Under the pieces are notes generated by a model, which was given only the letters and a program-made list of their open reading frames with translations, ran no database searches and was not told the origin of the DNA. DNA of 26,466 bases from a virus. The stretch spans positions 1-26,466 of IMG/VR virus record IMGVR_UViG_3300046385_000120; one strand, written 5' to 3'. Below, in pieces: positions 23,257 through 26,309 of the stretch. The position numbers and the translations under genes were made by a program. Position 1 is the stretch's first letter, and every line of letters starts with the position of its first letter.

Positions 23257-23330
23257 TGGTGCCCCCAGAGAGAATCGAACTCCCGTCCTCGGATTACAAA
23301 ACCGATGTTCTACCATTTAACTACAGGGGC
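23257..23330 (-). tRNA. tRNA-Thr(TGT), copy 1
   Basis: Acceptor GCCCCTG/TGGGGGC with wobbles, anticodon loop TTTGTAA, encoded ACCA. Differs by one base from the gene at 25837-25910. Confidence 0.9.
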
Positions 23331-23941: not shown

Positions 23942-23950
23942 ATATAATTT

Positions 23951-24026
23951 AAAACACACTGATGTCCTACAGCTTTAGTAGGCCTCTCACTGTTGCCAAT
24001 GACGCAGTCACACGTCAATGTGTTTT
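23951..24026 (-). ncRNA. Terminal-helix RNA element
   Basis: Closing stem AAAACACA/TGTGTTTT with core CACATT ... AGTG. The interior (about 60 nt) contains CCTAC-TAAAGCT-GTAGG. It lies 9 nt 5' of tRNA-Gly and 7 nt after the gene upstream. Confidence 0.55.
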
Positions 24027-24247: not shown

Positions 24248-24341
24248 CTATTCTGAAACACACTACCACGGCGTTATACTGCTGTATCGCAAACAATACT
24301 ACCATGTCTACCCATTGTGCATGTAATGTGCTTTAGAATAG
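24248..24341 (-). ncRNA. Terminal-helix RNA element
   Basis: Closing stem ATTCTAAAGCACATTAC/GTAGTGTGTTTCAGAAT (minus strand, one mismatch, one wobble). Core GCACATT ... AGTGTGT. It marks the 3' boundary of the large RNA locus upstream. Confidence 0.58.
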
Positions 24342-24676
24342 TGGAGGACTGAGAATACATCCTTACCGAACAACACCTCGGACATTATTGTAAGCCTTGC
24401 GAGCCTACTTTCTTCCGACTTCCACTAAGCACCATTACTGGCTATCCTAGTCTGTTGTCAACATCGCCGTTTTTAATGACAGGCAGTAGTCATGTCGCCG
24501 TATGCTATTCTACGCTTTCTATCCCGTTGACCTTGCGAGCCATTCAAGTGCGCTAACACCTTACGAAACTTCTTGCATAAACCAATATCACCTTGCGAGC
24601 TTTACTGGACTTGATTACCTTGCGGCTCAAGTATTAGATGCTTTTCACATACGACCGAGTCAGTCTTTGCTTTTAT

Positions 24677-24746
24677 GTTAGATAGTGATTTTGAAGTCAC
24701 AGCCTATTCCTTAACAGGGAATTGCTCTACGATGAGCTATATCAAC
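24677..24746 (-). tRNA. tRNA-Asn(GTT)-like domain inside the large RNA
   Basis: D-arm GCTC/GAGC, perfect anticodon arm ATTCC-CTGTTAA-GGAAT, T-loop TTCAAAA with one extra base, acceptor GTTGATA/TATC-T-AAC with one bulged base, no CCA. Too irregular for a normal tRNA gene and held inside an outer stem. Confidence 0.5.
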
Positions 24747-25231
24747 CTACTGCGATGTGCTGACTCAGTTGCTGCATAAAGTTTTGCTCTACACAATACA
24801 ACACACCACGTACCTTTTGCCTCGCGAGCTACTCAGTCACGTTTCGCGATCAATGTCTACGTTTCACAACGTAGCCACCAACCACTAACATTGCATACGA
24901 GCCCTTAGGAGCGACCCTTCGGACAAATACGCTACCCTTTCTTGTACCAACTAACTGATTGGTTTTGCAGTGAAGGACAGCACCACCTGTTTCCTTTCCA
25001 TATGCTTGCGTTACCTTGCGGCGCTTGAGCACACGTTCTTTCCACTACTATCAGCTTTGCTGTTATCTCCGCCGGTCTTATGGACGAAGCGTACCTCACG
25101 GTACCAAGCAGGCTTGTCTAAATGAACTATTGCTAGCGGAGTTATGTAGGCATACCTCCTTTGGCTGTGTCACCACAGTTATTCTTCGTAAACTAGCAAG
25201 CTAGTCTACAGGATGTTAAACCACCCTTAAA

Positions 25232-25347
25232 TTCTTATACAACTGCACACTATACAGGAATCGAACCTGCCTCACACTGCCATCGGCAATGCTGAATACC
25301 ACATATCATCAGCGTGTACGTCGCTTTGATGTGCATGTGTATAAGAA
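25232..25347 (-). ncRNA. Terminal-helix element carrying a tRNA-like insert
   Basis: Outer stem TTCTTATAC/GTATAAGAA, then TGCACAT/ATAGTGTGCA, the same CACAT ... AGTGTG core. The insert has a D-arm GCTGA/TCAGC with GTGGT in the loop, anticodon arm CATTG-CCGATGG-CAGTG (C33, GAT) and T-arm GCAGG-TTCGATT-CCTGT, but no CCA. The inner acceptor GTACAC/GTGTGC competes with the outer helix, so two folds are possible. It lies near the 5' end of the large RNA locus. Confidence 0.58.
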
Positions 25348-25495
25348 CTTCTTATACTGTAAATTTTTAAAGAACGTTGACTAACAGTCCTATGCTCGTG
25401 GATTATAGTCGTTACCACGTACTTTCAAGGATAGCAGAAGTGTTTTCTTTACAGCGAACAACTTTTCTGTTTTGTTAATTTCTTAACATGTATCT

Positions 25496-25534: not shown

Positions 25535-25631
25535 AAAATTTATTGAAATGTTTTACTGCATGCTAGGGCCACTATCACTTACCGCGGAGTTGTGCGCCGG
25601 TCTGCTCCTTTAAAACACTTCAATAAAATTT
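25535..25631 (-). ncRNA. Long-stem element just upstream of P16
   Basis: Nearly perfect 20-bp inverted repeat (TTTATTGAARTGTTTTA-like arms, one wobble, one indel) enclosing about 55 nt. It lacks the CACAUU/AGUGUG core. It could be a processing stem or the end of the upstream transcript. Confidence 0.45.
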
Positions 25632-25836: not shown

Positions 25837-25910
25837 TGGTGCCCCTAGAGAGAATCGAACTCCCGTCCTCGGATTACAAAACCGATGTTCTACCATTTAA
25901 CTACAGGGGC
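25837..25910 (-). tRNA. tRNA-Thr(TGT), copy 2
   Basis: Identical to the gene at 23257-23330 except one acceptor base (which converts a wobble pair). Anticodon loop TTTGTAA, encoded ACCA. Confidence 0.9.
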
Positions 25911-25916
25911 ATAATT

Positions 25917-26309
25917 TCATTTACGATAACTTCTTCCGTTACCTTTGTTCTTTGACTTATATGTATCAGTTTGACTATGACAATTTGGACATATAAGTCT
26001 TAAATTCTCTACTGCATTGTTTTGGTGGCGACCATCAATGTGATCACACTCCAATGCTAATACTTTTCCGTTGTGTTCACTAATTCCGCAAACAGCACAT
26101 TTATATCCGTGTACCCCAGCAAGATGGCGTTTTGCCCATCTTGGAATCTGTGTACCCCAATCTTTGCCTTCTTCTAACCAGGCTCTTATCTTTTCATTGC
26201 TTTGGTAAACAGCTTGGCACTTATTATCACAATATTTGTTTGCATAACTGTAGCCTTTGAATGCATGTTCCTTGCCACAGTGTAAACAGTTAAAATTTTT
26301 CTTATCCAT
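25917..26309 (-). CDS. HNH endonuclease in the tRNA array
   Basis: A 130-residue protein. N-terminal zinc finger (CLHCGKE...YCDNKC), then the HNH core CAVCGISEHNGKVLALECDH followed by IDGRHQNNAVENLRLICPNCHSQ: the two Cys pairs bind zinc and H-N-H is complete. AAGGA lies about 12 nt before the ATG. UGA stop 6 nt before tRNA-Thr. Presumed homing endonuclease. Confidence 0.87.
   Translation of the reverse strand: MDKKNFNCLHCGKEHAFKGYSYANKYCDNKCQAVYQSNEKIRAWLEEGKDWGTQIPRWAKRHLAGVHGYKCAVCGISEHNGKVLALECDHIDGRHQNNAVENLRLICPNCHSQTDTYKSKNKGNGRSYRK

Follow-up and report, generated by a model that had tools for sequence, protein, structure and literature searches.

The GOLLD RNA described here holds in its linker a tRNA-like domain that is very probably a maintained, non-translational tRNA mimic belonging to one lineage. 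The DNA analysed, called the window below, is the whole stretch of 26,466 nt that forms positions 1 to 26,466 of the viral IMG/VR record IMGVR_UViG_3300046385_000120. In it we found a member of the known GOLLD family with the linker at the place known for the family, stems that covary among relatives, a CCA end and outer acceptor pairs that have been lost, and an anticodon loop in which the unpaired bases are conserved around a variable wobble position. Our best explanation, to which we give a probability of about 0.7 apart from the identity of the partner, is that the RNA would assemble into a hollow cage, that the linkers would lie in its lumen, and that they may bind a factor that recognises tRNAs. 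GOLLD itself is known; what is new is the lineage analysis of the linker tRNA mimics over 97 loci (68 distinct linkers).

GOLLD identity and extent of the RNA

A preliminary description, made from the letters of the stretch 24342-25495, had guessed at a GOLLD-like structured RNA and had proposed a cmscan search of Rfam as the check, holding that the lack of an Rfam hit together with an expressed protein would speak against it. With cmscan and Rfam 15, the GOLLD model RF02032 matched at 24346-24809 (minus strand) over its complete length (model 1-416 of 416) with 196.7 bits and an E-value of 2.5e-54, which is 46.7 bits above the curated gathering cut-off of 150 bits and bears out the guess; it is virtually certain that the locus is a GOLLD RNA. 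The identities ROOL, HEARO, OLE and tmRNA were dropped, as none of these gave an Rfam match at the locus either at the gathering score or at E up to 5. In view of the RF02032 match and the published descriptions of GOLLD, what lies at the centre of this finding belongs to an established family. Its members combine a 3' domain that is conserved with a 5' domain that diverges, and their variable linker, in which phage tRNAs have sometimes been reported, lies inside the cage (PMC12286853); both an embedded tRNA and a setting in tRNA arrays are known for the family (PMC12286853, PMC6582537). The position beside tRNAs that had been described agrees with this context, the window having 34 tRNA genes.

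The other features named beforehand were also present. In agreement with a gene-free region, ORFs inside the stretch do not exceed 62 aa, and neither of the two that reach 60-62 aa has a Pfam match. Several dyads occur, and the GCAA-loop repeats are seen as five CGCAAGG copies from 24395 to 25020, all on the minus strand. Over the full 26.5 kb there are 10 copies, with 2.15 expected, and none of 100 shuffles reached 10. Single-sequence folding of the GOLLD RNA gave a z-score of -2.15, and 0 of 20 shuffles were equally stable. This signal is only modest, and the decisive evidence for a structured RNA is the covariance-model match.

The 1.15 kb RNA that had been proposed is a structured RNA, but its start at 25495 was not retained. 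The mature RNA probably starts near 25228-25235, because a promoter TTGACA..TATAAT ends just upstream of this point in many relatives (L006, L057, L061, L085, L127 and others). The 5' domain of GOLLD is kept across 58 representative relatives and starts there at AAGGG (25228 in the window), and a hairpin GGGTG/CATCC at the start of the conserved region covaries by eye. We therefore place the GOLLD RNA proper at 24346-25235 (minus strand), its 3' part being covered by RF02032 and its 5' end being the probable one given above. It is about 890 nt long, above 800 nt, and has the conserved 3' and the divergent 5' domain; the approximately 260 nt upstream of it are probably leader. Past the 3' end lies a large hairpin, ACTATTCT..CACA / TGTG..AGAATAGT (24248-24343, minus strand), of which short forms exist in relatives such as L012 and L022. 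By eye, AT-rich long hairpins of the AAAACAC..GTGTTT type recur at 24248-24343, at 25537-25630 and at about 23944-24025; they sit between tRNA genes and after GOLLD, and are possible processing or termination sites. The GOLLD region is flanked by two nearly identical tRNA-Thr(TGT) genes (23257-23330 and 25837-25910, minus strand), and an HNH endonuclease gene (25917-26309, PF01844) comes after the second.

The tRNA-like linker and its lineage

Positions 24676-24746 (minus strand) match the Rfam tRNA model with 49 bits as a cloverleaf with the anticodon loop CUGUUAA (Asn, GUU). The tRNA-Asn-like cloverleaf enclosed by a GAGTCAG/CTGACTC stem, as reported in the preliminary description, is thus present with its GUU anticodon, but it is degenerate: G18 of the D-loop is lost, the 53-61 pair is broken, the acceptor stem is bulged and CCA is absent. 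The window belongs to a subclade, with L034, L038, L063, L071, L102, L120 and near-identical copies, in which the GG of the D-loop is lost and the T-loop region is altered, the anticodon arm being intact. This degraded elbow weakens the idea of a faithful tRNA shape.

The closing stem consists of GAGTCAG at 24760-24766 and CTGACTC at 24657-24663 (5' and 3' strands, minus strand of the window), and its 7 pairs are all formed in 97/97 loci in five sequence versions, the window pair being replaced by GAGGCAG/CTGCCTC, GAGACAG/CTGTCTC, GAGGTAG/CTGCCTC or GAGGTAG/CTACCTC. In tRNA-less lineages (L008, L010, L013, L032, L046 and phage X1), different but fully complementary 7-mers, chosen by eye from the alignments, are found in the same place. 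The stem covaries in every GOLLD lineage checked and is a family-wide GOLLD helix. According to the Rfam structure line, the 5' strand of the stem falls within the first hairpin of the model, so that the stem would form a pseudoknot whose loop is the linker.

Relatives were collected with three pattern scans of IMG/VR, giving 97 loci with both linker flanks, the window included; one chance match was removed from this set. This selection by sequence pattern includes many near-duplicates; counts rest on distinct sequences (68 linkers) where stated. A homologous tRNA-like linker domain was found in 97/97 loci, and its insertion site and flanks are invariant. It is not an artefact of the search pattern, because loci found through the 3' flank alone also have tRNA-like linkers wherever the contig reaches. 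Jumbo phages carry this arrangement as well, since several of the contigs exceed 200 kb. A pattern scan of GTDB species genomes gave 9 matches, none with a tRNA-like linker or a resemblance to GOLLD, and a plasmid search gave no match. In L017, the linker domain (reverse strand, 1-60) has the anticodon loop ATTCAAA, without CCA, and its anticodon UCA would read UGA. Two GOLLD-bearing viral contigs, L032 (10134-10572) and L023 (7009-7397), also carry tmRNA, one of which scores as permuted, and L032 has a tRNA-Sec match in addition.

By BLAST, GOLLD DNA at 67-71% identity occurs in two isolated phages, Sinorhizobium phage Phosso (PV764938.1, L002 3031-3499) and Xanthomonas phage X1 (OQ427096.1, L164 2402-2831), and both are GOLLD by Rfam. 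Neither record has an annotation under the matched core; in Phosso, a short hypothetical CDS begins just past it. The Phosso RNA has the same tRNA-like linker arrangement, with the loop CTTCTAA and without CCA, and that of X1 is without it. The comparison is therefore a practical one, as both phages are isolated.

Changes in the linker were counted on a tree of the GOLLD RNA from which the linker domain had been left out. There were none at A9, A38 and A58, one each at T8, A14 and T33, two at A37, and up to 35 at stem positions. The wobble position 34 of the anticodon changed 23 times, position 35 six times and position 36 four times, so that Asn (GUU) and Lys (UUU, CUU) identities replace one another, the loop pattern Y-U-N-U-U-A-A being mostly kept. 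In the stems of the D, anticodon and T arms, pairs form at 84-100%, several pair types being found at their variable positions and compensatory changes exceeding those of shuffled controls.

The main rival to a maintained tRNA mimic is a purely structural spacer, for which any compact fold of that size would suffice and the tRNA shape would be kept for reliable folding. In other GOLLD lineages and in phage X1, the linker is unrelated and contains no tRNA, with the closing stem conserved in all; the tRNA is therefore not required for GOLLD as such. However, a spacer does not fit the unpaired bases U33, U35, U36, A37 and A38, which hardly change while the wobble base varies freely, nor an anticodon arm that stays perfect in the very subclade whose elbow has decayed. 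On balance we consider the spacer unlikely.

The acceptor end bears on the use of the domain in translation. None of the 68 distinct linkers has a CCA end, when 1272 of the 1304 free tRNAs in the same loci (97.5%) encode one. Acceptor pairs 1-3 are formed in 49-57% of linkers, which is chance-like, and pairs 4-7 in 88-91%; six or seven acceptor pairs exist in 1001 of 1007 distinct free tRNAs. Neither CCA with a seven-pair acceptor stem nor a stable anticodon identity, both expected of a functional tRNA, was found for the embedded domains. We accordingly rejected a working nested tRNA gene, freed by RNase P and 3' processing and supplying tRNA-Asn or tRNA-Lys during infection, as very improbable on account of the missing CCA and the random outer acceptor pairs, even though several relatives have an intact tRNA here according to ARAGORN, the core tRNA bases are conserved and the phage has a large tRNA array. 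The Asn/Lys switching and the window copy without G18 and the 53-61 pair also stand against it, as does the mycobacterial GOLLD, which is expressed and contains a pseudo-tRNA that is not expressed separately (PMC6582537). Occasional processing is conceivable, because about a tenth of the linkers (10/68) still keep seven acceptor pairs.

The embedded domains are 93% identical to their nearest embedded neighbour but only 71% on average, and 77% at most, to free tRNAs. Since similarity among them is so much higher than to any free tRNA, a single old capture is their most likely origin. Recurrent jumping of array tRNAs into the linker by recombination or homing, leaving recent functionless pseudogenes, would suit the tRNA arrays and homing endonucleases around GOLLD and the degenerate window copy, but it is already contradicted by this single lineage distant from all free tRNAs, by the constrained core bases and compensated stems and by the invariant insertion site, and is the least credible of the alternatives.

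The leader upstream of GOLLD

A sigma-70-type promoter lies at 25524-25496 (minus strand), exactly where it had been claimed, with the form TTGACA-17-TACAAT, 11 of 12 consensus positions and a TG before the -10 element. It sits 270 nt upstream of the conserved GOLLD start, and the interval contains, all on the minus strand, a boxB-like GNRA hairpin, GUUAA-GAAA-UUAAC (25474-25487), a boxA-like motif of the rRNA-operon antitermination type, CGTTCTTTAAAAATTTA (25360-25376), a palindromic hairpin, GTATAAGAAGTTCTTATAC (25339-25357), and a tRNA-like leader element, TLE (25240-25336). The palindromic hairpin competes with the outer stem of TLE, as its 3' half can alternatively pair across TLE.

The sequence GTTCTTTAAAAA occurs once in the window against 0.01 expected. 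A boxA-like motif is present in the GOLLD leader of 48/97 loci and also elsewhere in the arrays. In relatives, a boxB-like hairpin with compensatory changes lies just before boxA; the window has about 100 nt between them. Under one and the same permissive rule, a hairpin precedes the boxA-like motif in 32 of 35 distinct leaders and in 48% of shuffles; the convincing boxB-like hairpins are the GNRA-loop versions with at least 5 pairs. Such a hairpin and boxA motif follow the promoters of GOLLD/tRNA units in L012, L078, L106, L166, L169, L171 and others. Searching the literature for boxA or NusB in connection with phage tRNA genes gave no pertinent result.

TLE has a canonical T arm, a D-like arm, an acceptor-like stem and an extra hairpin, and 12 of its 20 predicted pairs show two-sided changes. 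The model R1, built from 19 copies with the window among them, gives the window 82.5 bits. Of 100 loci, about one third have a TLE by this model, and the usual distance to the GOLLD downstream is 5-70 nt; in roughly half of the TLE loci, boxA comes about 40 nt before it. TLE was observed directly upstream of GOLLD or tRNA genes in the window, L030, L068, L087, L093, L103, L120 and L165-L172. Because it also precedes tRNA genes in L167, L168 and L170, contigs where GOLLD was not found, TLE is a leader module of phage stable-RNA operons and not part of GOLLD. The latter identity was rejected because GOLLD conservation begins downstream of TLE and in some relatives a promoter lies between both. 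An ordinary tRNA was rejected too: TLE has no match in Rfam, the tRNA model included, and ARAGORN misses it at default settings, calling it Ile(GAT) in a relaxed run only. The leader hints at the way in which a phage could have a long untranslated RNA transcribed to its end.

Proposed role and comparison with known systems

In the mechanism that we propose, a strong host-type promoter would drive the GOLLD RNA, with a leader that carries candidate antitermination signals similar to those of rRNA operons. Going by homology, the transcript would then assemble into a hollow cage, such as the 14-mer solved by cryo-EM for GOLLD env-38 (PDB 9MEE), the only GOLLD for which 14-mer assembly is known (PMC12286853), and the linker of each subunit would point into the lumen. 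The linker here is a tRNA-like domain held on the covarying closing stem of the family. It keeps a tRNA shape and a readable anticodon loop but is not chargeable as it stands, and a cage would be lined with as many as 14 such uncharged mimics. Facing inwards, the domain may serve to bait or clamp a factor recognising NUU-type anticodon loops (Asn/Lys); candidate partners are the ribosome and enzymes that modify tRNAs or cut them as a defence. GOLLD binds ribosomes in pull-downs, and its expression rises during lysis (PMC12286853).

The conserved unpaired bases of the anticodon loop speak for a partner that reads them, and the loss of the acceptor end speaks against a role in translation; alternatively, the loop may be conserved for a contact within the RNA and not for a protein. 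A binding or sequestering role, in which the linker would bind a tRNA-recognising factor, is a tentative proposal with somewhat less than even odds. It is doubtful that the cages are traps, in which about 14 uncharged mimics with the conserved loop Y-U-N-U-U-A-A would line the lumen and sequester idle ribosomes or a host factor specific for Asn/Lys anticodon loops (a defence nuclease that cuts tRNAs, for example), the wobble base drifting freely or changing to escape cleavage. Whatever the partner, a conserved non-chargeable tRNA mimic that is expected to lie inside the cage points strongly towards it, and the anticodon loop, the elbow and the closing stem are precise targets for mutation.

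The leader can be compared with that of the E. coli rrn operons, where the order is promoter, hairpin and boxA and the boxA is TGCTCTTTAACAATTTA. The phage leaders appear to have the same order, the CGTTCTTTAAAAATTTA of the window is a motif that we take to resemble the rrn boxA, and L166 has TGCTCTTTAACAAT ahead of TLE. Unlike the rrn element, the phage element precedes GOLLD or tRNA genes and is followed by TLE. ROOL, encoded near tRNA islands, likewise forms a phage RNA cage whose inner linker is variable (PMC12286853), but its sequence and fold are unrelated, and the window has no Rfam match to it. The mycobacterial GOLLD, compared by its description, shares the tRNA array, an HNH endonuclease and a pseudo-tRNA within the RNA (PMC6582537). 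The closest correspondence is with GOLLD env-38 in the full-length model match, the conserved 3' and divergent 5' domains, the place of the linker, the tRNA-array context and the length of the RNA proper (about 890 nt in the window and 833 nt in env-38). On the other hand, the window RNA is preceded by a leader with a boxA-like motif and TLE, and its linker is a maintained tRNA-like domain, whereas that of env-38 is a short disordered loop.
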